A stretch of 64,000 nt of DNA from Platerodrilus igneus (lineage: Eukaryota > Arthropoda > Insecta > Coleoptera > Lycidae). The translations under genes and the position numbers were made by a program. The stretch lies in contig JARFIW010001104.1 in assembly GCA_036346225.1 (NCBI GenBank), positions 5,854,001 to 5,918,000 of the forward strand, read 5' to 3'. Below, piece after piece: positions 1,690 to 48,720 of the stretch; positions within the stretch are counted from its first letter, which is position 1; each line of letters opens with the position of its first letter. The notes beneath the pieces are model-generated. The model was not told where the DNA came from. It made no database searches and was given only the letters and a program-made list of their open reading frames with translations.

Positions 1690-4600
1690 TTTGTTTTGTT
1701 TTCGAACTTACTTAAGGTCGGTTTGACGCAGCTCTAAATTCTTTTCTATTTTGAGCTAGTCTAAAAAGGTCTGCATACTCTTCACAATCTAGATCTCTAA
1801 CAATTTTACTAATATAGCTTTGTCTAGGTTTTCTTACTCTATTTTTATTTGGTAGTCTATAATCTAAGACCTTACTAAATAGTCCCTCACGTCTTAACTT
1901 GTGCCCTATCATTCTATCTCACCTGACCTTTAATTGCTTCCGCATACAGGGTTCCTCACCTATTCTTCTATAAACTTCCTCATTTGTTACTCTATCTGTC
2001 TAACTAATCTTTAACATTCTCCTATAACACCAAGTTTCAAAAACTTCTATCCTTTTCTTATTTAGCTCAATTGTCCAAGTCTCACTACCGTATAATAAAA
2101 CGCTCCAAACGTACGACTTTAAGAAACTCTTTCTATTATCTAAACTAATACTATTAGCTATTAGTAAGTCTTTCTATTTTAAAAATATTTTTAAAATATT
2201 TTTAGCTATTCTAGCTACTATATCTCTTCTGCTACGCCCGTCCTTTGTAATTATACTGCCTAAATAGCAAAATTCATCTACCTCCTCTAACTCGGTATTA
2301 CCTATTTTTATTTTTGGTTTAGAACTAGGCTGTAACTCACTTGTCATTATTTTGTTTTTTCTGAGTTAATTCTGATATTATAGTTACTCTGTAGTATCTC
2401 ATGTAAAATATTTAAATATTCTCCTAACTCTTTTCTAGACTCTGTTGTAATGGCTATATCGTCTGCATGACGCATCATGTCTATTTTCTGTCCCTGTACT
2501 CTAATACCTATCTCTCTTCTCTCTCTAGCTAAGTTTAAAGCTTCCTCAATATAAACATTAAAAATCAAGGAAGATAGTATACAACCCTGTCTAACACCAT
2601 TTCTAATCTTAGCGTCTTTTTCTATTTCATCTAATCTAATTACTACGCTTTGGTTTTTATATAAACTGTAAATAATTTTTCTATTCCTATGAGAGATTCC
2701 TATTTTTTCGCAAAACCTTGAACATAATAATCCAATTCCCCCATCAAATGCTTTTTCTAAATCTACAAACGCGAAATGAGTCTTTTTTATTTTTTGTAAC
2801 CTTTTTTCGATAATTACCCTAATCATTAGTATCGGTTCTCTAGTTCCTCTGTCTTTACGAAAATCACATTGGTCTTCGCATAAATAATTATCAGTCAAAG
2901 CTTCTACTCTCTTTTTATTTATTATTGTTGGTATTTTGGAAGCGTGGGAAGTTAAACTAACCGTTCTAAAATTCTCACACCTATCAGCTCCAGACTTTTT
3001 TGGGATTGGGATAATAATATTTTTTTCGAAATGTATTGGGACCTCACCTCTGTCATATATTACTTTTACTAGTTCATATAATCTGTCTAAAATTTTCTGA
3101 CTTGCATATTTTATTAATTCTGCGTGTATATCGTTTATGCCCGGCGCTTTATTTAGCTTAAGATCCCTAACAGCTCTATCAAATTCCTCTCATAATATTG
3201 GGAATCCTGTTTCTACGTCCTCTTCTTGGCCGTTCTCTAACTCATCCATATTGTCTCCTTTATATAAATCTTCTAAATATCTTTTCCATATATGTGCTAC
3301 CTCAACTTTATTTATTAAAAGCTCATTATTTTCATTTTTAATACCATTATATTTTTACATACCTTTACCGAAAAACTTTTTAACTGCCCTGTAAGCCCTG
3401 TCTGTCTTACCTACTCTCAAATCATCTTGTATTCCCTTACAATTCTCCTCCATGCTTATTTCTAACTCTATTATATTTTTACTTACTTTCACTATCCAAT
3501 TCTCTGAAAGCTCTAAGCTTTTTTCTATTCTCTATTAAATCTAATATCTTCTTTGTTACCCAGGGTTTTCTCGATTCTACTTTTTTCTTACCTATAGTCT
3601 GTGTTGCTGTATCATGTACAGCTCTTTTTATTTCTTTCCATCTATTTTCTTCGTTCTCTCCTATAGCCATCTCTTTGATCTTATTATCTAATACTTGTTT
3701 CTATTCCTCTTTTACCTCACTACCATCAAGCTTACCTAGATCCCATCCCTCTCTTTTAGCCTTTCTCAATTTTTTTAATTTTAAATTACACTTCATTTTA
3801 ACTAAGTCATGATCGCTATCTATATCAGCTTCTGGATGACTACGACAGTTTTTAACTTGGTTTTTAAATTTTTGTTTAACTAAAATATAACCTATTTGGT
3901 ATCTAGCCCTATCACCTGGCGCTTTCCAGGTATATCTTTTTCTAGCATGTTGTTCGAATATGGTGTTTACAGTTACTAATCTATGTTCCTAGCAAAACTC
4001 AACTAATCTTTCTCCTCTATCATTTTGTGTACTATACCCAAATTTTCCTACCATTTTTGTCTCACTACCTTCTCCCACCGACGCATTAATATCTCCCATA
4101 ACTATTAAATTCTCATCTCCCTATACATTTCTCACTATACTATTTATATCCTCGTATACCTTTTCTACTTCCTCATTCTCGTACTGACTTGTTAGCATGT
4201 AAACCTGTACTGTACAGTATCTGTGTGTTTCGTACTCAATCTAACCATAATTATTCTATCACTAAATTGTTAGTACTCTTTGACTTTACGTCCTAATCTT
4301 TTACCAAACACTATTTCTACCACTGCCTGTCCATTAGTTGAAGAAGTTGTAATTATTCTGTAATTATCTTTCCAAAAGTCATTACTATCAGGCAATCTTA
4401 CCTCCCTAATACCTAAAATGTCCAGCTTTCCTTTTCTCATTTCGACTAATACATTCGTTGTTTTAAATTCTTACGATGGTGAGCACCAAGTACCCCCTTC
4501 GGAGATCCGAATGAGGGGTTTTATACCTCCGGACAAGAATTTTACTTGTGAGCTCTCCATCATACATAGTTCGTGTTTTAGGCCCCGCATGCCTGGGAAA

Positions 4601-4850: not shown

Positions 4851-6132
4851 TAAATTTTATTAATTTTTTGTTGTTAAGAAAATTAGTAGGAGGATGATGT
4901 AATGGCCATCTTGTATTAGTTAAGTTACACCTTAAGATGTATAGTTAAGGGGAGGTGGGCCTACGTTGCCATTGACTGCTGTGTATGACTGAAGAAAGAC
5001 GCGAGGGTATTCGGGTGTAGGTACTATGTAGTGTAACGAAAAAAGGTGTCCAAAAGCACATGATACTCGCAAGATGTATCTAGCAAGTTTAGAAAGTGAT
5101 GTGACATTTAAGCGCCCAAAGGACTTTCATTGAATCAGATGCCTCGTACGATTATAATCAGGAGAAGTAGAACTGAACAAATTCAAAGCCATAGTAACTG
5201 AAAGAAGATAATAGAATTTGTAGAAGGTTTGACAAAATTTGTTCCTAATTTCCGTAACGTAAAGTATTTTGAAAAACAAGGTTTTCTAATTACAGTGTCG
5301 AGGTGTTATCAAAAACTGTTTCTGTTTATAAAACACAACACAATGAAATAAAGACATTAAATCTGCACTACAATGTCACCACGACTCAAGTGCTGCAGTA
5401 AGATCAAAGCCAAGTACAACGCTACTATGTCATATGCCTTTGATCAAACGATATTGACACGAATGCACATCATAGCTACAAATAATGATGCATAAAAGTT
5501 AAATGTGTTTTCATATGCATTCCGACAAGCGAAGTCGTAAAACTAACACTTACAACGCTGGTTGGGGAACACACACTGGAACGATATTTTAAATATTGTG
5601 ACGTTTATGAATTAAACCGTTCCAAGGTAAGTTTGCCAGCTGGATGATAACTCCTTTAAATTTAGATAGTCGCACTATTAATGATGATCGGCAAAAGGGT
5701 TTCCTAGATAAGTTTTCCGTAAAACTAATACATTTATACACCCGAAATCAAAATCTTCATGGCTGTATTTTTTCCAAATACTCATATGGGCGTTTTTAAA
5801 TATCTAACATCAGGAAACGACTGTACGTTGTACAGCCGTGCACTAAATTTGAATTATTTGGAAAGCAAGCTTCACAGAGCTAATACAAGTTAGTTAAAAA
5901 CTAATTAAATTCTCAGTAAATATTCTTTTGATAAAACCTCCAATATTTACCTTGGGCAGTAAAGAAACTACGCACATCGTCGTTAGACAAATAAGTCGAC
6001 TGCTTTCTGTAAAAAAGGACCAATCCATGTAGTCACATAATCAAAAAATGCAAGAAAAAGATGTTCATTTATCCATAATTCTACATTGTATTTAAATCAA
6101 ATATGAAGTTATACCTACTTAGTAACGTGACG
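4851..6132. other. 1.3 kb without recognised features
   Basis: AT-rich sequence without a long open frame on either strand, RNA gene, or clear repeat seen elsewhere in the window. Probably intronic or intergenic, or a very old repeat. Confidence 0.5.
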
Positions 6133-6895
6133 TTTTATTATACCGGGTGTAACAAAATAAATGTACAACATTTCAGGGGTGATTCCTCATCGTAAAAGAG
6201 ATAGGGTCTTTCATATAAAGAAACTTCATTGGAGCATCCCTTGTTAAGATACAGCCCATTAAAGGGGATACACAAAATTTGTTTTTCATTTCTTTTTACA
6301 AACGCTAAAAAAGTTACAAATTGAAATTAAGGTGACATTTTTTACTATCAAAAATACACTTACTCAGTAATTTATCTGGTTTACCCCATGGTTGTAAGGG
6401 GTGAAAACGCAACCCCTAAAATTTATTTCCAATGTAACTTTTTGTCTTATTATTTGTTTGCTATTTAAAAATTTATTTCCAATAGCTTATTTTACTCTGA
6501 ACAAAAATGTCTCTTGAATTTTTTGCCCAAAATTAACCAGTTCGCAGAAAAAAATTATTTTACAAACAACTACAGAGATACATCGTCATAAATGCGAACT
6601 GGATTATTATTGTTATTTTGTAGTTACTACCTGCATCAAAGTATGATTAAAGATTAATAAGCAAAACTAATTTATTAATAACAAAACATACAACATGTAG
6701 AAATCATAGTAAATGTTCAATATGTCCACCTTTAGTGGATAAAGAAATTTTATGTACTCCCTTTACGGGGTTGTATCTTAACAAGGGATGCTCCAATGAA
6801 GTTTCTTTATATGAAACACCCTATCTCTTTTACGATGAGGAATCACCCCCTGAAATGTTGTACACTTATTTTGTTACACCCGGTATAATAAAATA
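6133..6895. mobile_element. non-autonomous inverted-repeat DNA element
   Basis: Two arms of about 150 bases are near-perfect reverse complements: 6133-6285 and 6737-6895. The outer ends read TTATACCGGGTGTAAC and its complement. The arms share blocks such as gaggaatcacc and catcccttgttaaga. The 450-base centre has no coding potential; it contains a second small inverted repeat around the word ccagttcgca. The flanks extend the palindrome by an AT-rich TTTTATTA, so a TA or TTA target duplication is possible but cannot be separated from the arms. Long arms with a short non-coding core are typical of MITE-like or foldback elements mobilised in trans. The transposase family cannot be named from this. 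Confidence 0.65.
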
Positions 6896-7560
6896 TTTAA
6901 CAAAAAGGATTAGATTTTGTAGGTTTGATCTTTTTTCAATTTAATATAATTGTCTGTTGAGTAAATAATCATCTTATTGTAAATGAAAATACAGATCTTT
7001 CACAAATTTAACATAACTGTATTAATTTTAATGATCTACAGACTGGTCGAGAAGTTATAACATTCCGTTGAAATGTTTATAATCATATTTCATTTTAATA
7101 GTTTCTGTATTGGTAAAACCCAGCAATAGCGTTAAGATTATTTCTTTTAAGAAATATAATTTTTAGGTTAGGTAAATTTCCAGGTTGATTCAGCGGTAAA
7201 TAGCATAAAATAGGTTGGGAGTTACGCTCTTAATTGTTGGGTAAATTGTTTTGTAATTGGTGTTGTTTTTTTACTGCAACATCCTTCCCATGGTGAATGA
7301 GTTATTAGGTTAGAAAAGTTTTAGGTGGGTTTGGTTTTTGAAGTATACGGAGGTTATAGCGTGTACGGGAATTAGTCTAGTGAGTAGGAGACCAATTTTA
7401 TTTTACTGCCTGCTTGCTTATTCTGCATACTGAATCCTTCTAAACTTTTCCTTCCCAAAAACAAACATATAGGGTAGAAACAACCATATGTGTGAAAAAC
7501 TGGGGGCCTGTTGGACTCCCAGGTGACACCTCCAGAGCGACTTACCATATTGTATGACAA
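6896..7560. other. no gene seen
   Basis: AT-rich DNA between the inverted-repeat element and the LINE ORF1 remnant. Short open frames here look random. Confidence 0.5.
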
Positions 7561-7561
7561 T

Positions 7562-8022
7562 TACAATTAACCCCCATACACAGTAATAGTAGAAATTGCA
7601 GAAAAAATATTGGAAATGTACACCCTACTGTGGTAGGCAAGATCCTAAAAAAAAAGGAAGTGGAAACAGGCAGTAAACTCACTAGAAAAGGTAGAAATCG
7701 AATCGGTATAGAGTTTAAATCACCGAGAGCAGCTAATGAGTTTGTCAAAAATCCTATAGTAAAAAGCTGCAACTAAAAGGTTTTTATACCAGCTGCTCTG
7801 GTCAGTGTCAAAGGTATTATTAGAGGTATCGATGTACACACTACTACAGATGCCATTGTATAAGAAGAAGTGGCATCGAAACCAATATTATCAGCACAAA
7901 GATTAAATAAAAGAACAGTTTCCACAGACAGTAACATGCAATATGTACCGACGGAAACGGTAGTGGTAACGTTTAAAGGAAAATCTTGCCCGGATTCATG
8001 CCCCAAAGGCAATTCAAATATT
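7562..8022 (+). pseudogene. Jockey/I-type LINE ORF1 (gag-like) remnant
   Basis: The plus-strand frame gives blocks characteristic of the ORF1 of insect Jockey-type LINEs: HPTVVGKILKKK, RKGRNRIGIEFKSPRAANEF, KVFIPAALVSVKGIIRG, AQRLNKR and YVPTETVVVTFKG. ORF1 proteins bind element RNA. Two in-frame stops interrupt it (about 7774 and 7860), and the expected downstream CCHC knuckles are absent because the frame runs into the inverted-repeat unit starting at 8023. It may be the 5' part of the LINE family whose RT/RNase H remnant is at 17063-18750. About 27 bases of its end (around 8000-8022) recur in reverse orientation beside the related unit at 16530, see findings. Confidence 0.7.
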
Positions 8023-8697
8023 AAAAGACAAGTTATTTGCAGTCTGCAATAAGAAATTGTATATAAAATAAGATGTATCTGTAAACAAACTCTTATGAAA
8101 ATAATAAGAGCTATTGACAAATTCAAATCGACCTAGTAGTTATATAGCCATTAACAAAACATTAGCTTTATTACTTCACAGGGGAGGAAACATCCACTGA
8201 CCGACGGTTTTGGCATAAATCCGGGTGTCGCCACGAGAAGGTTTGTTACGTTTGCAAATAAATTTCGCTGTAACATTCCGCAAATCTCAAAGGCCAAACG
8301 TACTTTTATAGCCATCTATAGAATCTACTATGTAGTGTCGATTCAATTCTGTACTTCCACAATTAGTAGTGTTGGTGTTTTATCACTTGATGGCGGTTTT
8401 ATTTACTTTTGCCATAGTACAGAGATTGTTTCGAAATTATATCAGTATAATAGCTTCGATTACTTTATAGGGTTGGAAACTAATTTGCTCTGATGAGGCT
8501 TAACAAAGCCGAAACCGTCGGTCAGTGGATGTTTCCTACCCTGAGAAGTAATAAAACTAATGTTTTGTGAATGGTTATATAACTACTAGCCCGATTTGTA
8601 TTTGTCAATAGCTCTTATTATTTTCATAAGAGTTTGTTTACAGATACATCTTATTTTATAGACGATTTCTTATTGCGGACTGCAAATAACTTGTCTT

Positions 8698-8698
<1 letters not shown>
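8023..8698. mobile_element. inverted-repeat unit A carrying a hammerhead ribozyme
   Basis: Arms of about 185 bases (8023-8208 and 8511-8698) are reverse complements with few differences. Their outer ends read aaagacaagttatttgcag and they contain the word cactgaccgacggtt at the inner ends. The 300-base centre (8209-8510) has no open frame. The inner edge of the right arm supplies the 3' half of the hammerhead ribozyme at 8470-8541. Two relatives occur at 15881-16530 and 16556-16990. The right end abuts a (TA)n tract. Hammerheads with very short stem III, and partly inverted terminal repeats, are known from Penelope-like elements and retrozymes. Assignment to that group is inference, since no GIY-YIG or RT protein is visible. 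Confidence 0.65.
8470..8541 (+). ncRNA. hammerhead ribozyme 1 (consensus core intact)
   Basis: The core reads CTGATGA (8490-8496), stem II GGCTT/AAGCC with an AACA loop (8497-8510), GAAA (8511-8514), a 3-bp stem III ACC/GGT closed by GTC (8514-8522), and cleavage-site C at 8523 (context GGTC). Stem I is long: 8483-8489 pairs with 8524-8530 (including three G-T wobbles), and, after a 2-base bulge, 8470-8480 pairs with 8531-8541 with one mismatch. All residues of the conserved CUGANGA and GAAA boxes and the NUH site are present, so RNA made from the plus strand should be able to cut itself after 8523. The stem III of 3 bp is weak, as in Penelope-like and retrozyme hammerheads, where activity can need a dimer. 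Confidence 0.8.

Positions 8699-8701
<3 letters not shown>

Positions 8702-8770
<69 letters not shown>
8702..8770. repeat. (TA)n microsatellite
   Basis: About 34 TA dinucleotides lie between inverted-repeat unit A and the hammerhead hairpin unit at 8775-9063. Confidence 0.95.
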
Positions 8771-8774
<4 letters not shown>

Positions 8775-8777
<3 letters not shown>

Positions 8778-9063
8778 TATATACGATGTATAGATAAACA
8801 CCCACTTTACGAAAAATCGAAAGAGGGTTTTTAACTATACAAAGCAACTAGTAATTTGCATAGCCATAAATGAAAGAATTTGTTCGTTTTATCCTGATGA
8901 GATCCAGTGAGATCGAAACTAGTCGATAAATGTTCATTCCCTTTATGAAACAAACAAATTCTTTCATTTATGGCTATGCAAATTACTAGCTTGCTTTGTA
9001 TAGTTAAAACCCTCTTTTGATTTTTCGTAAAGTGGGTGTTTATCTATACATCGTATATACTAT
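8775..9063. mobile_element. 289-bp hairpin unit with a hammerhead at its tip
   Basis: Arms 8775-8884 and 8950-9063 are reverse complements over about 110 bases (shared words include tagtatatacgatgta and gcatagccataaatgaaag). The 65-base loop holds the second hammerhead. A transcript would fold into a long rod whose end is the ribozyme, with stem I of the ribozyme effectively continued by the arms after an internal loop. It has no coding capacity. The left end touches (TA)n. Confidence 0.7.
8888..8930 (+). ncRNA. hammerhead ribozyme 2 (consensus core, palindromic stem III)
   Basis: Stem I TTTATC (8888-8893) pairs perfectly with GATAAA (8925-8930). The core is CTGATGA (8894-8900), stem II GATC/GATC with loop CAGTGA (8901-8914), GAAA (8915-8918), then ACTAGT (8918-8923) and cleavage-site C at 8924 (context AGTC). 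ACTAGT is self-complementary: it is too short to close as a hairpin within one molecule but could pair between two molecules, the arrangement of dimeric hammerheads described for elements with minimal stem III. All conserved core bases are present. It lies at the apex of the inverted repeat 8775-9063. Its core and arms are unrelated in sequence to hammerhead 1, so it represents a second family. Confidence 0.78.
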
Positions 9064-9115
9064 TTGATTTATTAAATTTGCTATAAGCAATTATTTTTAA
9101 TATCATATATATATA

Positions 9116-10580
9116 TATGCAAGTTCGTTGTTGACTCAGTCACAATAATTTGTATTAATTACGCAAATTCAATATTCAATATTTAAATTCAAATAGAAGA
9201 AAATGTCTTAAAACTAAAAAATCTAACCTGGTCTGTTTACTTCGTTATTTCCTTCTCGCAACCAAGATTATCGACGCATCCATTATAAACTAGAATTTTC
9301 CATGCATTATACCATCCATTTGGATCAAAATTATTCTCCACCAATTCAGAATTATTATATACCCATTTAAAATTTTATCTATCCACAGTTAGATTTATTA
9401 CATTTGAATTATTGTCGTCACCCTCTGGATTATTATTATCACCGGCCTCAGAATTGGATTATTATACACCCTCGAATTATTGTTGTCACACTTGGACTTG
9501 GAATTTATTCTCACCGGCCTCAAAGTATCATTTATTCTCACCAGACTCAGATCTAGATTTCTTATTGTCACACTTGGAGCCGTTTAATCGGCAATAGAAA
9601 TTTTCATCTTCGTCGCACTATCTGTCACTTAAACAATTTTCACATTTAAATATTATTCTTAGGCGTTACTTTTAGGTTGAAATTGACGCACCTCGGCCTT
9701 TGTTGAGTTGAGAACTAAGCTCGTTATCATTGTCGCTGTTAATATATGATTGATATCCCAATTCGTCTGTGGGCATGACTTACAAGCCCGTCGCTAATCT
9801 TAACCAATGAAGTCTCTTTATTTAAAGTAGTTTCTGATGTAACATTCTCTGCCTTTCGAGTAATTGTTGTTTGCTTGCAGCTGCTTCGTTATCAGCCCAA
9901 GCGGTGTTTTGAGAAATATTATCGCTTTTCCTTATTATACACAAATATCTGATGCAATTCGACTTTCAATGTTCATATATGCTTATTTATTTACGCATTT
10001 TTAATTACCTTAACTTATCAAAATTGTTAATTATTTGTACGCACTTACCCTACGCTTCTCTAAGTTTTATTTCTTATCTCCGTATTATCATAACTGATTG
10101 GAATTCTTTTGAATGCGTGTTTAATTACCTTTATTATGCTTACTTCTAAATCCGGGTGCTTTTACTGAAAAAAAATCGCAATTTGCTTTACCTACATTTA
10201 CTAAAACTCTATATACAGGGTGTTAAATATTCGTTATCCACCTAATGCATGTATTACTTATTTCTATGCTAACTATGCGTCTTATTGTGTCTATTTGCGT
10301 CGCTTAAAACTACTTATACTCTATATACAGGGTGTTGACCGCTTACTATTTACAAACTTTTCCAATTACTCAATTTTCTATTAAATAAATGCAGTTTTCT
10401 GCTTCCTATTATAATTTCTAATTCCTGCACGACCATTGCTATAAAATACACCCTTAAATAATCCCCCTTATCGCAGCTATATATATATATATATAAATGC
10501 AGTTTTCTGCTTCTATTATAATTTCTAATTCCTGCACGACCATTGCTATAAAATACACTTAATAATCCCCTTATCGCAGC
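9116..10580 (+). repeat. repeat U, copy 1 (5'-truncated), left arm of palindrome
   Basis: Non-coding repeat defined by comparison of four copies in this window. This copy lacks the first ~430 bases of the fuller copies and starts at gcaagttcgttgttgactc. Its last ~90 bases are present twice (before and after a short TA tract at 10477-10496). It contains TACAGGGTGTT motifs at 10212 and 10326. The short open frame at 9412-9597 is conserved in the reverse copy but looks like AT-rich tandem wording, not a protein. The copy ends in (TA)n at 10581. Confidence 0.75.

Positions 10581-10660
<80 letters not shown>
10581..10660. repeat. (TA)n at the centre of the palindrome
   Basis: An almost uninterrupted TA run (one tatatt break) forms the hinge between copies 1 and 2 of repeat U. 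Confidence 0.95.
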
Positions 10661-10662
<2 letters not shown>

Positions 10663-12218
10663 CTGCGATAAGGGGATTATTTAAGGGTGTATTTTATAGC
10701 AATGGTCGTGCAGGAATTAGAAATTATAATAGGAAGCAGAAAACTGCATTTATTTAATAGAAAATTGAGTAATTGGAAAAGTTTGTAAATATAGGGTCAA
10801 CACCCTGTATATAGAGTATAAGTAGTTTTAAGCGACGACAAAAGAATTCAGCAATCAAGTTAAGCATAATAGACGATAGAAATAAGAATAATAGGTAAGT
10901 GGATACAAATAATTAACACCTTATATAGTTAGTAAATTAAAGCAAAGTTCATTTTTTTAGTAAGGATTAAAATGCGTAAATAAATAAAGTGAACATTGAA
11001 AGTCGAATTGCATCAGATATTAGAAAGCGATAATTTCCAAAACACCGCTTGGCTGATAACGAAGCAGCTGCAAGCAAAAACAATTACTCGAAAGGCAGAG
11101 AATGTTACATCAGAAACTACTTTAAATAAAGAGACTTCATTGGTTAAGATTAGCGACGGCTTGTAAGTCATGCCCACAGACGAATTGGGATATCAATCAT
11201 ATATTAACAGCGACAATGATAACGAGCTTAGTTCTCAACTCAACAAAGGCCGAGGTGCGTCAATTTCAACCTAAAAGTAACGCCTAAGAATAATATTTAA
11301 ATGTGAAAATTGTTTATGACAGATAGTGCGACGAAGATGAAAATTTCTATTGCCGATTAAACGGCTCCAAGTGTGACAATAAGAAATCTAGATCTGAGTC
11401 TGGTGAGAATAAATGATACTTTGAGGCCGGTGAATAAATTCCAAGTCCAAGTGTGACAACAATAATTGAGGGTGTATAATAATCCAATTCTGAGGCCGGT
11501 GATAATAATAATCCAGAGGGTGACGACAATAATTCAAATGTAATAAATCTAACTGTGGATAGATAAAATTTTAAATGGGTATATAATTGAATTGGTGGAG
11601 AATAATTTTGATCCAAATGGATGGTATAATGCATGGAAAATTCTAGTTTATAATGGATGCGTCGAGGTGAAAGGAAATAACAAGTAAACAGACCAGGTTA
11701 GATTTTAGTTTTAAGACATTTTCTTCTATTTGAATTTAAATATTGAATATTGAATTTGCGTAATTAATACAAATTATTGTGACTGAGTCAACAACGAACT
11801 TGCATACGTAGAAAGTACGTAATATGATAAAGGGGTTTTGAACGTTCCAGGCTTCTTTTTATAAAAACAATAGTTTTGTTGGTGACTTTAGATTGATTGA
11901 AAAGCATATAATTTTTGAGATAAAATAAGATTTACAATATTAATTGATTGAAAAGTGTATTTCAATAATTTTCAAAACCTGTACATAATATTTGTTTTCA
12001 TTATATGGAATTGAATTAACTTCATTTTATAATTCAAAATAAAAGCTAGTCGAGGTCGAATGATAAAAGTTAGTGGGAGTGTAATTTGATAATTTAAACA
12101 GAGAGGAGGAGTTATAAGTTGAATACGCCATTGATATCGAGTAAGGCGTTATCACATCAAGTTTTGTTATTGGTCGACACAAGGTCGGTCCACGATAGTT
12201 CCTGGAGGGAGCTCATAG

Positions 12219-14086: not shown

Positions 14087-14320
14087 GTCATCGGTCTTTG
14101 TGGAGTAATTGGTAAACGCATGGTTCCGGCAAAACCAGGATACAGGTTCAAGTCCTGTCCAAGACCTTATATTTTCCATCTTTCAATTACTAGCTCGATT
14201 TGAAATGATCATTTCGGCTTTGCATAAAAGTCTAAGCTATTATTTCATCTTATTCACTCTAATACGATAGTATTTATCAACTTACCTTGTGTAATTAATT
14301 ATCTAAAAAAATATATATAT
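14087..14320 (+). mobile_element. tRNA-like SINE, copy 2 (complete head)
   Basis: About 14093-14166 can fold as a tRNA: acceptor GGTCTTT/CAAGACC (6 of 7 paired), a short D arm, anticodon stem TGGTT/AACCA with loop CCGGCAA, and T arm ACAGG/CCTGT with loop TTCAAGT, which contains the RNA polymerase III B box. The anticodon loop has C instead of the invariant U33 and the D arm is weak, so it is unlikely to be a working tRNA gene. The same head plus ~140 bases of tail is repeated at 13704-13915, which argues for a SINE family or a tandem duplication. Internal B-box sequence implies pol III transcription potential. Confidence 0.6.

Positions 14321-15840: not shown

Positions 15841-15876
<36 letters not shown>
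15841..15876. repeat. (TA)n
   Basis: About 18 TA units directly left of inverted-repeat unit B. Confidence 0.9.
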
Positions 15877-15880
<4 letters not shown>

Positions 15881-16530
15881 AAAGACAAGTTATTTGCAGT
15901 CCGTAATAAGAAATTGTGTAGAACAATATATAAAATACGATGTATCTGTAAACAAACTCTTATGAAAGTAATAAGAGCTATTGACGAATACAAATCGGGC
16001 TAGTAGTTATATAGCCATTAACAAAACATTAGCTTTATTACTTTACAGGGGAGGATACATCCACTGACCGACGGTTGCGGCTTTGTTAAGCCTCATTAGA
16101 GCAGATTAGTTTCCAACCCTATGAAGTAATCGAAGCTATTATACTGATATAATTTCGAAACAATCTCTGTACTATGACAAAAGTAAATAAAACCGCCATC
16201 AGGTGATAAAACACCAACACTACTAAGTGTGGAAGTACAGAATTGAATCGAAAGTACATAGTAGATTCTATAGATGGCTATAAAAGTACGTCTGGCCTTT
16301 GAAATTTGCTGAATGTTACAGCAAAATTTATTTGCAAACGTAACAGTGGATGTTTCCTCCCCTGTAAAGTAATAAAGCTAATGTTTTGTTAATGGCTATA
16401 TAACTACTAGCCCGATTTGTATTCGTCAATAGCTCTTATTATTTTCATAAGTGTTTGTTTACAGATACATCCTATTTTATATATTGTTCTACACAATTTT
16501 TTATTGCGGACTGCAAATAACTTGTCTTTT
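15881..16530. mobile_element. inverted-repeat unit B (centre flipped relative to unit A)
   Basis: Outer arms 15881-16064 and 16347-16530 match those of unit A. The centre between them is the reverse complement of the centre of unit A, as expected if recombination between the arms inverted it. The inner end of the right arm lacks the ccgtcggtc word. On the minus strand a hammerhead is recognisable at 16061-16125, but CTGATGA reads CTAATGA (16093-16099) and GAAA reads GCAA (16075-16078), so it should be dead. It is preceded by (TA)n and followed by 27 bases shared with the LINE ORF1 end near 8000-8022. Confidence 0.65.
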
Positions 16531-16555
16531 ATTATTTAAATTGCCTTTGGGGCAT

Positions 16556-16989
16556 GAACCCGGGTGTCGCCACGAGAAGGTTTGTTACGTTTGCAAATAA
16601 ATTTTGCTGTAACATTCCGCAAATTTCAAAGGCCAGACGTACTTTTATAGCCATCTATAGAATCTAATATGTACTTTTGATTCAATTCTGTACTTCCACA
16701 CTTAGTAATGTTGGTGTTTTATCACCTGATCGCGGTTTTATTTACTTTTGCCATAGTACAGAGATTGTTTTGAAATTATATCAGTATAATAGCCTCGATT
16801 ACTTCATAGGGTTGGAAACTAATCTGCTCTGCTGAGGCTTTACAAAGCCGAAACCGTCGGTTAGTGGATGTTTCCTTCCCTGTGAAGTACTAAAGCTAAT
16901 GTTTTGTTAATGGCTATATAACTACTAGCCCGATTTGTATTCGTCAATAGCTCTTATTATTTTCATAAGAGTTTGTTTACAGATACATC

Positions 16990-16990
<1 letters not shown>
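16556..16990 (+). mobile_element. inverted-repeat unit C, partial, with decayed hammerhead
   Basis: Carries the centre (starting cgggtgtcgccacgagaag) and right arm of the unit in the orientation of unit A and stops at cagatacatcg where (TA)n begins. The hammerhead at 16810-16880 keeps stem II, GAAA (16850-16853) and stem I pairing, but reads CTGCTGA (16829-16835) where A6 is required, and the cleavage-site base is T (16862). Loss of A6 should abolish cleavage. Confidence 0.65.
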
Positions 16991-17040
<50 letters not shown>

Positions 17041-17062: not shown

Positions 17063-18750
17063 ATCACTAGTAAATAAAATAAAAGTGGATGTAAGCATTC
17101 TATAATATGCAGATGATATAGCTCTGGTCTACACGCATTCTAATATTGAAAGGGCAGTAGCTATAATGGAACAAGTCCTGTCAGAAATGAGTGAGTGGAT
17201 GAGGCACAATGACCTTATCATCTCCTTAGAAAAAACCAAAGCAATGATCTTCAGGAAACCAATATCACAGCTGATGTATAACAACACCCCGATAGAATGG
17301 GTCACCAAATACAAATACTTGGGGTAATTTTCGACTCCCATATGAAGTGGACCAAGTACATTGTCAATTGCTGTACAAGGGCAATAAGAGGCACCAATAT
17401 AATGATGGCGTTAAAGAGAAAATGGTGGGGATCGCACCCAAAAACCCTATTGAGTATATATAAAAGGATATTAAGAACACATCTGGAATATGGTGCAGTA
17501 GCAATTTTCAAAACCTCCATAGCAAACTGGACTAAACTAGAAAGGATGCAATACCAGGCTCTAAGGATCATCTTGGGATGCATCAAGTCTAATCCAAAAA
17601 ATGCACTATTGTCTGAGGCAGGAGAGACGCCGTTGGTTAATCGAAGAGTTTGGCTAGGAGCAAAGTTCTCTCTGAAACATTTATCTAGATCGCAAAGTAG
17701 TACAAGCAAGTTGCTGATTGACTTATGCGCCCTGTTTAGTGCAGAACCTCGGTACTGGAGAGGACAAACAATACCTGCAATCATGGAGGGTCTGGACCTG
17801 TCTCTTCAATTCCACGACTCCCTGGAAAAATCAGTGAATATTCCTTGTTATGAACCTGACTATGGTACACAAATTCGTCCTATTAAGTGGGTCAACACAA
17901 ACATCAAGAAGGAACAAGCTGCCCTTAAATTTCAAGAGTTCTTAAATGAGCATGCAGCCGAAAAATACATCTACACAGATGCCTCAATGGACCAGGACAT
18001 GGAGCGGTGTGGTGTAGGTGTATACAAACCACAGGACAAAGTTAACTTTTGTACCAGGGTGTTGAGCAGAACATCCATAAGTGCTGCAGAGATAAACGCC
18101 ACCAAAGTTGCAGTGGAACTAGCTTGGATGTCTGAGAAAACTGGCAACATATCAATCATAACAGATGCACATAGCGCTATTGAAAAGGTAGCACGAATGG
18201 GACTGAACGCCAAGACAGATCGCACTACTCTGGATATTAGGCAGAAAATTCTTAACGCGCAAGAGGGAAATTTAAATATTAAGCTTGTATGGGTCCCCGG
18301 GCATGCAGGAATCAAAGGCAACGAAGTTGCCGATGCACTAGCCAAACAGGGCAGGGCGAAGAATGCATTCTTTAAGAAACCAATACACTACACCGAAGTA
18401 CATCCAGACATGAGAAACCTAATATGGGAACAATGGCGTAAGACATATGCAAAGGTATCACTTAATAAAGGGAGACAGTACACTGCAATAAACCCTGAAC
18501 CATTGAAGAAACCATGGTTCCAGGGATCCAAATATACTAAAAGGAAGCATATTTCGATTACCTGCAGAATGCGAACCTTGTACTGTTGTACTCCACAACA
18601 CTTGCACCGAATAGGGGTTATGTTGCGGTATACCGGGCACACAAGGAAGAGGAAGCAACGAAGGAAACGTAATTAGTATGCACCGATTATCACCACAAAA
18701 AAAGGGACCGGAAGAATACTGAGCTAACTAACTAGTCATAGAGGGGAGTG
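17063..18750 (+). pseudogene. LINE reverse transcriptase C-terminus plus RNase H (Jockey/I superfamily)
   Basis: The RT palm is present from YADDIALV (about 17107) onward; a 1-base frameshift at about 17323 separates it from the long frame ending at 18676, which continues with the thumb (LGVIFDSHMKW, HLEYGAVAIF) and a complete RNase H fold: YTDASMD, AAEINATKVA, ITDAHSAIEK and VPGHAGIKGNEVADALAK give the D-E-D-D active site. The C-terminal tail at 18560-18640 (CRMRTLYC...HLHRIGV) resembles the zinc-binding end of such LINEs but drops out of frame. The endonuclease and most of the RT are missing, cut at the (CA)n tract. RNase H would remove template RNA during reverse transcription. The RNase H frame itself is uninterrupted, so this is one of the younger copies here. 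Confidence 0.82.
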
Positions 18751-38584: not shown

Positions 38585-39960
38585 CTAAACTGGAATGTTT
38601 TTCCGAATTTTACTCATAACGAACTTAGGAGCTAACTTAGCGGAAAATTTATCACTAGCACTCGAGAGGACCTTATTAGTTCTCCAAACATACTCTCCGA
38701 CTCGGAATGAAATGTCTCTTCTCCGAAGATTGTAGCGTTTACACGAACGTTGATAAGCTACATGCAAATTTTCACGGACACTTCCAAAATATCAAACAAA
38801 AGTTGACGATCCAAAACATAAGAAGGTCTACTACTGGAGACGACATCAACATCCTCACCAGGTATAAAATTATCCTTATAAGCTTTTCCACTTAAAGGTA
38901 CCTGACGACCAAAAACTAAAAATTTGGTGAATAGTTGGTGGACTCATGTTTTGCTGAGTTGATCGCGTATTGGATCTTTGATATCTCAACATCCCACGTA
39001 TCATGTTCTTCTACGTATGTACGGATTGCTGTACCAACTGTCTTATTGATTCTTTCCACAAAATTGCATTGGGGAGCATAAACAGCGTTATACCAAATTT
39101 TTGAATTTCGTACCTTGCACACAAAGCTTTAAAAATACGTCCAACTAATTGTGGACCATTATCACAAATAACAAATTGTGGTACTCCGTAGACAAGAAAT
39201 ACCTTTTCTTCCAAAACTTCTCGATCAAATGTGCGGTAGCACTACGTAAAGGTTGCAAAATCGAATACTTCGAGAACCAATCACCAACAACTAAGAGCCA
39301 TTTATGTCCGCGTTTGGAACGAGGAAACGGACCCATCAAATCTAATGCAATGGTTTGGAATGGTAGTCCAACTTCTTTCTCCTTTCCCATCATTCCAAGG
39401 GGACCTCTATTGGGTGGTTTTGAGCACCACAAATCAAACATTTCCTACAAAATTTACGTACGTCAAAGATCATCTTTGGCCAATAATACAATTCTTGGAC
39501 TCGAGACAAAGTTTTAAGGAACCAAAATGTCCTGCTGAAGGGGGTCATGACATGATTTAATGACATCTACGCGCTGAGACTTTGGCACCAAATATTTCCA
39601 CTCTACAACATTCGCCGAATGCGGTAATAAGGAAGGTATAAACTTATAAATAAACCCATCTTCTACTTTCCATTGTGGGTAGCTTTTCGGTGACAACAAA
39701 ATTTTCTTTCTCAAAGACTCATACCACAAGTCTACTGCATCAAGTTTAATCTCTACTAAGTTAACTTCTGGATTTTCTAAAGGAACACCACGACTAAGAC
39801 AATCTGGAACTATATTGAACTTTCCTTTTCTATGCACCAAATCAAATGAGTGTTGCCTTAATCGAACTGACCATCTGGCGAGTTTTCCAGTTGGATTCTG
39901 AAGATTACTCAACCAAAGTAACGAAAATGATCGGTGACAACGGTGAATCGAACTCCTTCT
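38585..39960 (-). pseudogene. Gypsy integrase
   Basis: Minus-strand order: end of RNase H and tether (SLLWLSNLQNPTGKLARW, DCLSRGVPLE), zinc domain (VIKSCHDP, then CRKCLICG near 39440), catalytic core with LDLMGPFPRS (first Asp), CDNGPQLVG (second Asp) and NFVERINKTVG (Glu), and the C-terminal domain (FRVGEYVWRTNK, LAPKFVMSKI). All three catalytic acidic residues are present, but the frames are broken by a stop near 39514 and shifts near 39150 and 39000, so no intact enzyme can be made. Confidence 0.82.
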
Positions 39961-41580
39961 ACCCACGGACGAAATTTCTCAATTGCAAAATAACCGCTAA
40001 ACACTCTCTTTCAGTGGTGGAATAATTGCGCTCAGTACGGCTCAGGGTTTTGCTTGCGTACGAAATTACACGCTCTTCTCCGTTTACATTCTGAATCAAC
40101 ACAGCTCCTAACCCAGTGTTGCTTGCGTCACACTCAACGATAAAGGGTGCCGAGTAGTCTGGCTGCGAAAGAAGAGGTGCAGAAACTAATGCTTGCTTGA
40201 TTAGCACAAATGAATTTTCTGCTTCCGCACTCCAGTTTACAGTTTGACCTTTTTTCTTACTTTTAATGAGGTCATTAATAGGCGAAACTAAAGACGAAAA
40301 ATTCTTTATAAAGCGCCTGTACCAGCTGCACATTCCTATAAACCTTTTAATTTCCGTTGTGGTTTTCGGACGGGAAAGTTAACCATCGCCGACACCTTAT
40401 CGGGATCTGTACGAAGTGAGTTCGAACCTACTATATAACCCAAAATTTAAGTGTTTTTTAAAAATTCACATTTACTTATATTTATGGTAAGGTTAGCTTC
40501 TTTTAAACGTTGCTTAACCTCTACTAATAACTTTAGATGATCTTCAAAAGATGACGAACATAATATTATGTCGTCCAAATAGCAAAATACATGGGGTTCA
40601 AAACGTGGACCAAAAATTGCATCTACTAAACGCTGTTGCGTCTGCGCAGCATTCTTCAACCCAAATGGCATGCATGTAAATCTATATTGTCCTCGTGAGA
40701 TAACACTGAAGGCAGTCTTATCCTTAGACGATTCACTAAGAGGATTTGCCAAAACGATTTTCTCAAATCCAGAGACGAAATGTAGTTCGCACCTCTCAAC
40801 ATATTGAGAATTCTATCTACGTTCGCAAGGGGGTACGAATCATGAACAGTTAAGTCGTTCAGGGTTCTACCATCAAAACAGAAGCGATATTCTCCATCTG
40901 CCTTCTTAACCAACAAAACTGGAGAGGACCACGGACTAGTACACGGTTCTATAACTTTAAGTCTAAGCATGTCGTCCAATTCCTCATTCAATATCTTACC
41001 AATATATGGTGACATGACATATGGTTTCTTGTGGAAGGGTTTGGCATTGCCTGTGTCTATGTCCAATTCGATTAGGTGAGTTCGTCCTAATCTATCGTCG
41101 CTGCTAATCTCACTAAATGAATTTATTAACTCTTGTGCTTGCGCACTTTGAGCATCTGAGAGGTCATGTAAACCACATAAAGAATCTTCAGTGTTCAAAG
41201 GGATGGAAGACGGACCTATATACCCTATGTCGTTCCCAACATTGCTTTGGATAAACCAATTATTACTTCTAAAGTCAGCAACTACACCAAATAATTTTGC
41301 AAAGTCACTACCGAAAATAAATGTATGCGGTAGGGACGGAACCACTAATGCATTAAGGATGCGGCAATCATTACCTATACAAATTGGCAAATCTACTGAG
41401 CCTACAACAGACTTTATTGAACCATCAGCTGTAGTGATACCTGTTTTGCTGAACTAAAATTTTCAAGTCTAATTCTCTAACAATTGAAAGTGCTAAGGAT
41501 CCTACTACTGAGGTAGTGCATCCCGAATCCAGAAGACCGGTAATGTCTCTATCTATTAATTTCACCATAATGTAGGGTCG
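39961..41580 (-). pseudogene. Gypsy protease, reverse transcriptase and RNase H
   Basis: Protease: GLLDSGCTTSVVG near 41540 (catalytic DSG), followed by a 1-base shift near 41455. RT: frame 40656-41390 holds the fingers (VIEPCTSPWSSPVLLVKK, YRFCFDGRTLN) and motif A ISSLDLRKSFWQI; a shift near 40755 leads to 40447-40752 with FTCMPFGLKNA and the active site YLDDIILCS. RNase H: frame 39959-40333 with IVECDASNTGLGAVL. The usual RT VDYR reads CFDGR here. Domain order and spacing are normal for Gypsy. About three frameshifts disable it. Confidence 0.88.
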
Positions 41581-41748
41581 ATTATCACACTGCTTCTCAA
41601 TGAACAGAGTATTATTCTTAGGCTTCGAAGAGTCCTGACAAAATTTTTAACAACTGTAAGCCATCTCGACCACTCGTCTTTACTAAAGTATTTTTCTTGT
41701 TTACAAATCATAACTGTAGCCTTATGACGCGGAACAGGATACCGACCA

Positions 41749-43115
41749 CTATGTACCTGCCGCCTTACTGGTTTTTGAACAATGTGGACATGACGTTGCC
41801 TTAACGCCTTTTCGACCACATCCAAAACAAAAATTTTTTGTTGCTCTACAATCTCTAAACCAATGTCCACTACGGGAGCAATTCCAACAAACAAAATGAT
41901 TCCTCTTATCGGGACTAAAGGAATTACAAACCGAGGACTCTAAAGAGCTCTTATCCGCTACTGTTACTTGAGGATTGACTAATTTATTCTGAAACACCCT
42001 ACTCTTAACAGCATAAACTTTCTCATTCAACCCAGGATGTTTGTTCTCATATGGATGCTTAGAGGGTTGCAAATCTTATTAGGTTTATTAGAAGACGCCA
42101 AAACCGAGTTTAGTTTCATCAAAGAAGCTTCTTCTAACCTTTTACACAAATTTACTAGGGTCGACAAATCTTGAATGTCCGACAATGCAAGTGCCGAAAT
42201 ATATTCAGGAACCAAATTTCTTCTAATCATTTTAACTTTAGTAACTTCTGCTGGCTCGTTGGTCAGTCTACTAAAGAGGGTTTGCATATGCGCGACAAAT
42301 AAAATAATCCTTTCGTCTTTACCTTGACGACGATTTCTGATCTTTTCCCAAATGTCATCATCCGAAGAACCAGGTAGAAAATCTTCCTTAAACGTTCTAA
42401 CAAGGAGTTCCAGTCTCGCAAAGAATTTTTCACTGTTCTAAACCAAACCAAAGCGTCACCCACAAAAGTTCACATGCTGATCCAAATAAGTCAGCTTCGG
42501 ATACCTTACGAGATTGTGCTAAATCACTAACTCTATCTAAAAATGAATGTAGTTGTTTGGGGTCACCTGAGAATTTTACAGGCCATGAACCTATAGGTAC
42601 TGAAGGTGTTACATACGAAGTCGAATGGATAGGTGCACTAACTAAAGGAGATACTACAACGGACCGATCTAAATAGGTGGACTCTGTACTTTTATTGATT
42701 TTATCGTACAACTCAGCTTCAAGAGTTAATATCGTTGCTACGGTCTCATTTCTAAACTTAATTGCTTCATCGGGATTTATTGAAGGGATTTTCATACGCT
42801 TAGCTCGTCCCGAAAGGTGGTTTATCCTTGAACAAGCTCTTCTAAAATTGAGTCTGATGAGTCGCCCTCAAACTCGGACACAATATTACGAACTGACTCG
42901 ACTGAAACTGAAATTTCTTTACTTTCCGTTGCAAAATCTACTTCATAACACGAAAGGTCAACCAAACAACCAGGCTTATCTATTTCTTTAGCTAACAATC
43001 TACCTAAAATTTTCCGTTTCTCCAACACTGGCCTCTCACTTACCACTCCTCTGATTCTTAGTTCATACTCCAATTCTTCTTTAAGTAGACAAACAATTTG
43101 GAATTTTTCCGACAT
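41749..43115 (-). pseudogene. Gypsy gag with CCHC knuckles
   Basis: Gag starts at the ATG at 43115 (MSEKFQIVCLLKEELEYELR), 550 bases after the primer-binding site. A break near 42800 leads to 42430-42795 (VKFSGDPKQLHSFLDRV, the capsid start). Further shifts near 42450 and 42270 give the capsid end (EYISALALSDIQDLSTLVNL). The nucleocapsid at 41749-42072 has one proper knuckle, CWNCSRSGHWFRDC, and a second, CFGCGRKGVKATSC, in which Val replaces the zinc-binding His. Inactive because of frameshifts. Confidence 0.8.
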
Positions 43116-45582: not shown

Positions 45583-46260
45583 TAACAATCTTTAAAGGAC
45601 TCCCTCTATACTCAGATAATTAGCCGATTGCATTTGAGCAATTAGTAAAAAGATATCAAAATAAACGTTTGTTACTTACGAGTTATGGGCAGGCTATATC
45701 TAATGCCCCGAAGACTACGTCTGATTCAGAAGCATTGCTGCGTGCAGTGTTAGCTATATTTGTTGAAAATTCATTAGCCTTGAGTCAGTTTGAACAGTAT
45801 TGTGGGACTTTACGCTATTGAATCTTCTTTTACAAAAATTGGATAGTTCGACGAGAATGCTGTTTGAAATCAAACTTCACGATGTGGAAGTCCCGTCGTA
45901 TGAACAATTGTATTCATTTTTATTAAAACGATGAAAAGCATTAGAAACTAATTTTGTGATAGCCGGGTCAAAATCCTGTGATAGAGCAATCGCACAATAA
46001 CCGCAATCAACATTTATCGTTTGCTACAAGTGCAACAAAATCCAATTTGAGTTCGCATCGTGTGCAATGTGTGTATTGTAAAGAAGAGCACTCACTGTTA
46101 AAATGTGATCGTTTCTGGACGTTAGATTCTGCTGATCGTCATAAGTTTGCAAAAACTTCTAACTTATGTTTTAATTGTTTGTCAAGTACACACTCACTTG
46201 CAAAATGTATGTCAATAATGGTGTGTGTAACAAAATACATCACACATATTTACATTTTAA
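45583..46260 (+). pseudogene. BEL element A gag, C-terminal part with zinc knuckles
   Basis: Continues the gag split at 35287: TIFKGLPLYSD, then LLRAVLAIFVENSLALSQFE, FEIKLHDVEVPSYEQLYSFL and two CCHC-type knuckles, CVYCKEEHSLLKC and CFNCLSSTHSLAKC. A stop at about 45626 and further shifts near 45820 and 45930 break it. The zinc knuckles would bind element RNA. The next frame overlaps at 46175. Confidence 0.8.
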
Positions 46261-48720
46261 CAAACCGGAAACCTCCAGTACTAACAATGTGCTAATCAAA
46301 AATGAAGCTCAGACAGAAAATGCGAGCTCTGCAAAACAATTATCTGTATTGATGAGTACAGCACCTAACAAAAGTATTGTGTCATTATCCACTGTGATTT
46401 TGCAGGTGAAAGATAATGTGGAAATTATCAGACGTTTCATGACGCAACAATGCGCTAAAGGACTAGGTTTAAAAATTTCTGTCTCATCAATTGAAGTACA
46501 TGGCCTGAATAAAATGAGTATGTCGAGCGACGTTGTATCCTCATGCTCATTACGACCTTTTCAAAAATCAAACCCTAATTTTGAAATTAATGTGATTATT
46601 GTGCCTTCAATTGCGGGTATGGTGCCATTTGGCCCGGTATCAACTCGTCCAAATTATATTAAAACTTTGCTATTGGCCGATCACTATTATGGCCGCACCC
46701 GGGAAGTGTACTTACTACTAGGTGCAGACATATATTCTACAGTATTGTTATCAGGTTTAAAGCAAGGACGGTCAGGAGAACATTCTGCCCTGAATACCAT
46801 CTTTGGATGGATTCTTGTTGGAAAAACATTGTGCGCCGGTAAACCAAACGTGACCGCCCTGTGTACATCTATAAGTGCTCCCTTAGACACCATTATTCGC
46901 AAGTTCTGGGAATTAGAGCAAGTTCTTGAAAGTGCAGTGCAGTCGCCTGAGGATAAGCAATGTGAATTTATATTTGTGCTTCATTTACCCTTTCGAGAAT
47001 CATGTGCCGAACTTGGCAAGTCGTCCTCTATCGCTCTGCGACGTTACGAACAACTGGAGCGACGGTTAGGGAAAAACCCTCAGCTGGCAGCAGATTATGC
47101 GATGTTTATGAAAGATTACCTTGATTTGGGTCATATGTCTTTAGCGCGAGATCCTCCCTCAGCACAGTCAGTATGGTACTATATTCCCCACCATTGTATT
47201 CAAAAACCTGACAGCACCACAACTAAACTGAGAGTGGTTTTTGATGCATCAGCCAAATCATCAAATGGACTGTCGTTGAATGATGTGCTGCTACCAGGTT
47301 CAAAATTGCACAGAGATATTACAAGTATTTTGTTAAATTTTAGAGTGCATAAAATTGTGTTAACAGCCAATATAAAACAAATGTATCGGCAAATTGAAAT
47401 CTGCGAACAACATCGTTCATTTCAACGTATCTTCTGGCGATTTTCACAAAATGATGCAATTCAAGAGTACCAACTCAATACCGTGACTTATGGAGTTAGT
47501 CATCTCCATTCTTAGCTCTTCGTGTTTTAGTCCAGCTGGCACAAGATAATGTAGAGACTTATCCGTTAGCTCCCAAGGTACTTCTTTCTGACACTTACAT
47601 TGATGATGTCGTTACAGGAGAGAATTCTGTAGAAAATGTCTTGAAATTACAACAACAGATTATATCTTTATTATCGACTGATGAGTTTACTCTTCGCAAG
47701 TGGAGTAGTAATGACTCAAATATACTAACTGCACTGCCAACAGAAGATCTCCAACCAATGTGTTTTGATGAATCCAACTCAATTAATTTAAATGTTCTAG
47801 GGTTGCAGTGGCATCCTCAGATAAATTGTTTTCAATTCAAAGTTCAATCTCTATTACAACCTTGTACTAAGCGAAGCATTTTATCTGATATAGCGAGGGT
47901 GTTTGACCCACTTCACTTATTAGCACCTGTGACCTTTCTTGTAAAATACCTTGTACAACATCTGTGGACCTTAGGGATAGGTTAGGACGGCACTCCACCT
48001 CCTGATGTCGTGGAAAGATAGACGGCATACAAATCACAATTATCGTGTTTATCAAGTATGAGGATCCCTAGACGTCTTCTAATCGATAGTGTAAAATCCT
48101 TAGAGCTTCATGGCTTTTGCGATGCCCCTGAATCTGGTTATGCCGTAGTAATTTATATTCGTTCTGTAACACACGACGAAAAATATTCAGTAGTATTGAT
48201 TTGTGCCAAGTCAAAAGTTGCTCCCCTCAAGCGAATCTCTATGCTTCGACCAGAACTATGTGCAGCCGTTTTGTTATCAAATTTGATCGAATATGTGACT
48301 AGTGTTTATAAAACCAATCTTAAGTTTGATAAAATTTATGCTTGCTCTGATTCGACTATAACCTTGTCATGGATAAAGTCATCGCCACATCGGTGGAAAA
48401 CCTTCGTTAGTAATAGAATCACCCATATTCAAGATAGGGTTCCACCTCAATTATGGCATCACATCAGTGGTAAAACGAATCCAGCCGATTGTGCATATGG
48501 TGGGTTACTGCCGTCAGACTTTCTATCTCATACTGCATGGTTTTCCGGGCTCTCGTTTCTCTATGAGGATCATGATTATGCTTCAGCCAACCCTGAGTGT
48601 TTGGAGTTAAGGAAAACAGGTGAAGAACGAACAATTACTTTTGTGCATGTTTTATCAACCAACGTGATAAATACGCCGTTAAACCGTATCTCGCATTGCG
48701 TAAGGTTCTGGGTGTCATAA
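46261..48720 (+). pseudogene. BEL element A protease, RT and RNase H
   Basis: The long frame 46175-47515 holds the Pao-type aspartic protease (LLGADIYSTVLLSG) and the RT start (KLRVVFDASAKSSNGLSLND). The segment that should contain the catalytic DSG of the protease is missing: the text runs from VILQVKDN straight to RRFMTQQCAKGLGL. RT motif A reads TANIKQMYRQI, with Asn at 47369-47371 in place of the catalytic Asp. A frameshift near 47510 leads to 47530-47985 with DTYIDDVVTG (active site) and the thumb. RNase H follows at 48058-48720 (LHGFCDAPESGYAVV, CSDSTITLSWIKSS). It is dead in two catalytic sites besides the frameshifts. Confidence 0.88.

Follow-up and report, generated by a model that had tools for sequence, protein, structure and literature searches.

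Non-LTR retrozymes of animals, with their type-I hammerheads, circular RNAs and dimeric ribozyme activity, are already established (Cervera and de la Pena 2020, PMC7229834). They are non-autonomous, low-GC tandem repeats occurring as dimers to arrays, and they coexist with Penelope-like elements (PLEs) that carry hammerheads as well; that work names PLEs as their likely, unproven helpers, and PMC7761336 likewise mentions PLEs as likely helpers of retrozymes. Which enzyme moves animal retrozymes has so far been a matter of inference only. With regard to PLEs themselves, PMC3846280 describes Penelope of Adineta vaga, whose inverted pLTRs are mostly head to head, one of them bearing an optional tail of 31 bp, and PMC11167929 describes the Poseidon element PAc of the anole, in which a hammerhead is present and which cuts and extends both strands in vitro at AT-rich targets. 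In the experiments described there, the reverse transcriptase (RT) of PAc starts at two internal sites, the start site does not differ between strands, and hammerhead mutants leave the in vitro insertion unchanged.

The repeat analyzed here occupies positions 8765 to 9106 of a 64-kb window, by which we mean the whole stretch of DNA that was analyzed (G000:C1032:5854001-5918000 in an assembly of 2.71 Gb and 1,723 contigs). It has no long open frame and is most likely a non-LTR retrozyme. With the metazoan retrozymes of PMC7229834 it shares the type-I hammerhead, a tandem organization of low-GC repeats that ranges from dimers to arrays, the non-autonomous nature and the coexistence with hammerhead-carrying PLEs, and with the amphibian ones among them the weak palindromic stem III. 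The size criterion for retrozymes is 170 to 400 nt with a GC content below 45 to 50%; GC is low here (31.5% for 8001-10000), whereas the units measure 508 and 523 nt. The elements here also differ in that their copies face each other head to head within (TA)n and have 3' ends of unequal length, an arrangement that we did not find in the main text of PMC7229834. The satellite hammerheads of newt and axolotl (PMC7229834), likened here by description, have a one-pair stem III and a palindromic tetraloop as well, with dimers being more active there, although their repeats measure 330 to 350 bp. By analogy with these published repeats, the self-complementary ACTAGT of our locus would fit a dimeric hammerhead, as the preliminary description had suggested. 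The pDo500 satellite of Dolichopoda cave crickets, again likened by description, also contains a hammerhead with a proposed double (dimeric) form, in which, however, stems I and II are described as pairing between strands and stem III within one (PMC2837043). As for the PLEs described in PMC3846280 and PMC11167929, they share with our locus the AT-rich targets, the microhomology at the 5' junction and the optional tail of 30 to 40 bp, while the retrozyme unit differs from PLEs in having no long frame and in its full-size hammerhead with an extended stem I. In the literature covered, mostly that outside subscription journals, we found no work announcing head-to-head retrozyme insertions, paired long and short ends or (TA)n targeting. 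The feature itself is of a known kind; its insertion anatomy represents a new-looking, statistically strong link between retrozymes and PLEs.

Insertions in the window and their repeat families

According to our analysis, the repeat consists of two 5'-truncated copies of one unit of about 523 nt, fused head to head in (TA)n and overlapping by 5 nt at their junction (Table 1). The near-perfect inverted repeat of about 110 bp that the preliminary description had placed at 8775-9063 is real, but its extent has to be revised to 8765-9106, since the right end carries about 34 to 44 nt more than the left one. The repeat had also been taken for a hairpin unit; its two arms are instead separate truncated copies (A10 > 406 and A349 > 44) in the usual head-to-head arrangement.

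Table 1. Retrozyme copies, hammerhead parts and TA tracts in the window
Feature	Position	Strand	Basis or remark
Family-B copy, B38 > B325	7989..8210	-	outer end unusual, outside TA tract
Family-B copy, B25 > B3, long 3' end at TA tract	8212..8698	+	head to head with 7989-8210
Family-B type-I hammerhead motif	8464..8544	+	R1 88.5 bits (model member); CTGATGA 8490-8496, GAAA 8511-8514
(TA)n tract at left 3' end, also at right 3' end of neighboring B insertion	8700..8764	.	sequence
Left arm, family-A copy running from its outer, short 3' end at unit 10 to the inner 5' truncation at 406	8765..8892	-	blastn to L010 unit, 93%
Right arm, family-A copy running from the 5' truncation at unit 349 to its outer, long 3' end at 44	8888..9106	+	blastn, 96%
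Type-I hammerhead motif	8869..8945	+	model R1 57.3 bits, pattern match, pair covariation among relatives
Inner stem I TTTATC/GATAAA	8888-8893 / 8925-8930		sequence
Hammerhead core CTGATGA	8894-8900	+	sequence, pattern match
Hammerhead stem II GATC/GATC	8901-8904 / 8911-8914	+	sequence
Hammerhead core GAAA	8915-8918	+	sequence
Palindromic stem III ACTAGT	8918-8923	+	sequence
C17	8924		predicted cut 8924/8925
(AT)6 tract at right (long) 3' end	9107..9118	.	sequence
Third insertion, left copy, B9 > B57, long 3' end	15875..16345	-
Hammerhead of left copy	16045-16125	-	core changes CTAATGA, GCAA
Right copy of third insertion, B336 > B474, longer than one unit, with short 3' end	16344..17001	+
Hammerhead of right copy	16803-16883	+	CTGCTGA core

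The genome search that the preliminary description had proposed showed that the repeat is multi-copy. The 289-bp query gave 88 matches at the best 40 of 1,543 first-look candidates, the matches outnumbering the places because a palindromic query matches both strands; three further searches gave the best 40 each of 2,559, 2,016 and 788 candidates, at places that partly overlap. More than 100 copies were scored in the genome, and a single query gave as many as 2,559 first-look candidates. Longer copies revealed the full units, of 523 nt in family A (L010) and of 508 nt in family B (L046), each consisting of a body, a hammerhead and a 3' part. The two hammerheads at 8 to 9 kb, placed within 450 bases of each other by the preliminary description, had been considered unrelated. 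The A and B units align over 280 nt with 67% identity (E 9e-10; local score of 75 versus at most 31 in 200 shuffles) and are therefore sister families. Head-to-tail arrays of units were found on contigs C149, C371 and C983, that on C149 comprising at least 16 same-strand units over 12.6 kb.

Besides the 8765-9106 element, the window contains two head-to-head insertions of family B. That at 7989-8698 breaks the pattern described below, as its left end lies at B38 and has no TA tract. In the insertion at 15875-17001, both hammerhead cores are mutated, and the 5' end of the right copy coincides with the predicted cleavage site (B336/337). Over the insertions at 8-9 kb and at 16-17 kb of the window, no open frame of at least 130 amino acids was found.

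A third hammerhead subfamily, C, was observed at L026, where positions 6003-6079 (minus strand) and 6404-6481 (plus strand) form an inverted pair with the core CTGACGA and the stem III ACCTGGT. An inverted pair of a minimal hammerhead-like motif of another kind, CTGATGATGACCACATAGTGGTCGAAA, was observed at L020 (3035 on the minus and 3247 on the plus strand).

The hammerhead motif

The core reported earlier, with its GATC/GATC stem II and its ACTAGT stem III, was confirmed in the sequence, where the string from 8894 on reads CTGATGA-GATC-CAGTGA-GATC-GAAA-CTAGT-C, flanked by TTTATC/GATAAA. Motifs of the form CTGATGA-N-CGAAA number two in the 64-kb window versus a shuffled mean of 0.24, and two or more occurred in 3 of 100 shuffles. 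The Rfam covariance search put forward as a check returned no hammerhead family at or above its own cut-off in the whole window, the hits below it being HH9 with 22.6 and 25.7 bits (cut-off of 52) and RAGATH-1 with 17.1 bits (cut-off of 56.3). Model R1, which we built from 20 relatives that do not include the 8869-8945 copy, scores this copy at 57.3 bits (E 3e-11). The Rfam matches of the hairpin to microRNA precursors (MIR7502 and mir-8517) are below cut-off as well and are ascribed to the long AT-rich inverted repeat.

Covariation was analyzed in 20 hammerheads of families A, B and C (L026), hand-picked for diversity from 86 rows. Over the 18 pairs tested, 95.5% of the cells are paired versus 84.9% after shuffling (0/500), and sliding the partners lowers the hammerhead pairing in the 20 sequences to at most 45.4%. 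Changes on both sides were counted in 59 hammerhead cells versus 20.6 in shuffles (0/500), and 9 of the 18 pairs changed on both sides versus 5.8 (6/500); further pair types, 19 versus 22.0, are below every shuffle, and the shuffles ignore relatedness. We deem this good comparative evidence that a hammerhead fold would have existed in the ancestors of families A, B and C, and the motif at 8869-8945 is, as judged by sequence and covariation, a genuine type-I hammerhead-like motif. In the intact relatives stem I is longer, comprising the inner 6-bp helix, a small internal loop and a second 6-bp helix (AUAAAC/GUUUAU in family A and GGAAAC/GUUUCC in family B); an outer AGGG/CCCU-like helix, judged by eye, stands outside the pair count.

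The hammerhead had been placed at the tip of the hairpin. In our computations, the 289 nt fold at -180.7 kcal/mol with a minimum-energy tip predicted not to be the hammerhead, whereas folding of the intact unit L010 gives it, so that the window copy is probably the poorer ribozyme according to these models. Its outer native stem I is missing, as the 5' side stops at unit position 349 and is followed by the other arm. Computed dimer energies favored pairing for all three sequences tried, and the dimeric hammerhead was not singled out among them.

Orientation, targets and ends of the copies

In order to describe how the copies sit in the genome, 75 loci and the window slice 5001-12000 were mapped onto circular units, and four duplicate loci (L001, L029, L011 and L046) were dropped before counting, leaving 71 loci and the slice. 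An inverted repeat is part of the queries that yielded L001-L028 and L049-L060 (family A) as well as L029-L048 (family B), so inverted copies are favored among these loci; L061-L075 derive from a body-only query. Junctions were defined as same-family neighbors at most 40 nt apart. Of 60 such junctions, 57 join opposite strands and 3 are same-strand offsets; all 57 are head to head and none is tail-to-tail. With two body-only queries free of inverted repeats, the close pairs among the listed matches, counted by eye, run minus-then-plus in 8 of 8 cases. Seven of the 15 family-A loci from the body-only query are single-run copies, and hence two-sided insertion is common, not universal. Tail-to-tail neighbors of different families were found across a TA tract in the window (8698/8765), at L025 and at L071, and we take them to have entered a shared tract by separate insertion events.

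A run of (TA)6 or longer lies within 40 nt of the 3' end in 115 of 141 cases (80/95 for A, 35/46 for B), against a background of 98 in 3,962 windows of L009-L028 and 22 in 1,599 of the 64-kb window. Since the same runs are rare at unpaired 5' ends (5/28), TA marks the presumed priming ends. The position of both window hammerheads beside one (TA)n tract, earlier considered unlikely by chance, is probably indeed not due to chance because the 3' ends of both families adjoin such tracts. Several (TA)n flanks run on as TATT-GCTGTGATA... or TTA-CTCATATTTAGACCAGGGTAG... (e.g., L015, L022, L028 and L059; L023, L032 and L049), so part of the TA targets probably lies inside other repeat families.

The 3' ends fall into two classes, at about 512-14 and 35-50 in family A and at about 474 and 3-9 in family B, with few elsewhere; the classes were defined after viewing the distribution, and the loci are a non-random sample. 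One long and one short 3' end were found in 45 of 49 scorable head-to-head insertions (A 31/34, B 14/15), whereas the permutation means are 17.3 of 34 for A (0/20000) and 7.7 of 15 for B (30/20000). The four exceptions are two short-short and one long-long insertion in A and one long-long insertion in B. Ten of the 59 head-to-head insertions, with one end off the stretch or unclassified, were omitted. The rule is obeyed by 8765-9106, short on the left and long on the right, and by 15875-17001, which stands outside the count.

Within one insertion, the arms resemble each other more than arms re-paired between insertions do, both in family A (identity of 0.925 versus 0.873, 33 insertions, 0/5000) and in family B (0.960 versus 0.929, 16 insertions, 0/5000), as read in the 3' part, with 10 of 59 insertions omitted since an arm was missing the tested part. 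This likeness suggests that both arms derive from one RNA or from RNAs of one source, although gene conversion could also produce the greater identity. At the junctions, the arms overlap by at least 2 nt in 28 of 57 cases, compared with 99 of the 316 blunt joins that were simulated (one-sided P of 0.008), and by at least 1 nt in 34 of 57 versus 155 of 316, which is little excess; blunt junctions (2/57 versus 103/316 simulated) and junctions with inserts (21/57 versus 58/316 simulated) complete the set. They are best read as the joining of two free ends.

A peak of 5' ends was considered as proof of cleavage in vivo and rejected, the cut position not being distinct from others. Among 98 A ends and 47 B ends, no unique peak was found at the predicted cut: A386 has 4 of the 98 ends versus a local expectation of 1.3 within 1 nt, and position 349 has 5, while 4 ends fall at each of 319 and 334. 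Of the 47 B ends, one lies at B336, and the 15875-17001 insertion adds another outside the count.

Penelope-like elements and the origin of the insertions

In the same genome, we detected at least 149 matches to GIY-YIG frames among the best 150 of 6,529 candidates scored, each listed one being over the cut-off. L086 has a frame of 481 amino acids with both RVT_1 (E 3e-11) and GIY-YIG (E 3e-7), and L076 has the same C-terminal part, a small 3' hammerhead that shares the word CGAAACTAGT with family A, and a (TA)n end. A second PLE, L009, whose GIY-YIG match (E 0.003) is below the Pfam cut-off, carries a motif resembling a hammerhead in which the stem III word is a different one. The pair count used 76 of the 149 matches, among which, as judged from the list, are all contigs with two matches at most 6 kb apart; GIY-YIG matches on opposite strands and at most 6 kb apart run minus-then-plus, i.e., head to head, in 10 of 10 pairs, and one further pair is on the same strand. 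Four insertions of the L076/L086 family could be read at both ends; three have a long end and an end about 30 nt shorter, and one has two long ends. Seven of the eight ends lie at a TA tract and one has no TA. Family B and this PLE family share the 10-nt word ACATCTTATT, located at the short start site (8/5000 shuffles; post hoc); family A lacks it. In L077 and L078, which belong to other GIY-YIG families, the hammerhead core in the 3' region seems decayed, as judged by eye.

The retrozymes bear the marks of PLE-type insertion, namely, head-to-head inverted copies and an optional tail of 30 to 40 nt at one end. No RT plus GIY-YIG frame was found in the retrozyme unit (frames of at least 130 amino acids, window insertions), and a unit of only 508 to 523 nt cannot hold one; the retrozyme inserts like a PLE yet is not an autonomous PLE. 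Since the PLEs of this genome show the same end pattern, it is likely that they copy the retrozymes. Our main reading, to which we assign a probability of roughly 0.75, is that a PLE reverse transcriptase-endonuclease cut (TA)n and copied one retrozyme RNA from both cut ends, giving insertions of the 8765-9106 type. In this scheme, transcripts of tandem units of about 508 to 523 nt would be cleaved by their type-I hammerheads to unit-length, probably circular RNA, as in published retrozymes. A PLE enzyme would then cut a (TA)n tract on both strands, with one cut end priming at the "long" site and the other at the "short" site, which lies about 34 to 44 nt closer to the 5' side of the RNA. The two enzymes would travel along what is presumably the same RNA, sometimes for more than one lap, until the two cDNA ends were joined, mostly over 1 to 5 nt or with short inserts, into the head-to-head junction; the hairpin would be a by-product where both arms happened to be short. 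The equal start sites on the two strands and the unaltered insertion of hammerhead mutants of PAc (PMC11167929) count against this reading. More tentatively, and at somewhat less than even odds, we envisage a PLE dimer that would cut the self-complementary (TA)n, with two RTs on one retrozyme RNA ring at start sites 34 to 44 nt apart and their cDNAs joined 5' to 5'.

Other routes to the same arrangement have to be considered. A self-priming model of foldback type was put forward for Penelope inverted repeats in PMC3846280, and in our case minus-strand cDNA would prime itself and be copied, and the resulting hairpin would integrate in a TA repeat. Such a route would explain the head-to-head inverted repeats, the short-overlap junctions and the likeness of the arms within an insertion. 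It also predicts equal 3' ends, which differ in 45 of 49 insertions, and nearly equal 5' ends, whereas the 5' truncations of the two arms are a median of 95 nt apart and more than 100 nt apart in 26 of 57. The one-long-one-short rule argues against foldback cDNA, which we hold to be rather unlikely, and favors a start of copying on each of the two target strands. A DNA transposon of MITE-like or foldback type that carries a hammerhead by chance and inserts at TA would likewise be multi-copy, with terminal inverted repeats and TA-rich sites. The inner junction varies among copies and the two ends are unequal in length, which in practice rules out a MITE, and the same unit occurs in head-to-tail arrays, with the arms being variable 5' truncations of a longer unit; such a transposon is very improbable.

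The retrozymes could also have been mobilized by a LINE rather than by a PLE, for example by the RTE-type elements of the window. The RT frames present in the window are ones that we take to be LINE-type, RTE-type elements among them, and no long sequence is common to the retrozymes and the sampled PLE 3' ends: the 3' end sequences differ, and the similarity of the PLE 3' regions compared (L076 and L009) to the retrozyme units is not beyond chance. Mobilization by a LINE is nevertheless quite unlikely, as the two-end, two-length, (TA)n pattern is common to the PLEs of the same genome, and twin priming by a LINE would give one 3' end, not two outward ones. If the reading with two RTs on one RNA ring is true, each such insertion would document integration from a single template with two primers, and the pair of long and short tails would be its signature in both retrozymes and autonomous PLEs. 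As this genome contains many retrozyme copies whose ends record the process, along with autonomous PLEs in the same arrangement, a partnership of retrozymes with PLEs can be tested jointly with the optional tail and the inverted pLTRs of the latter.

As to the rest of the window, open frames were observed at 2347-3189, 17282-18676, 39514-42867 and 46175-49826, which presumably resemble pieces of LINE, gypsy and BEL/Pao polyproteins. Positions 14093-14167 look like a tRNA gene (tRNA-Ala [ggc] according to ARAGORN; Rfam tRNA, 44.7 bits) and are possibly part of a SINE.
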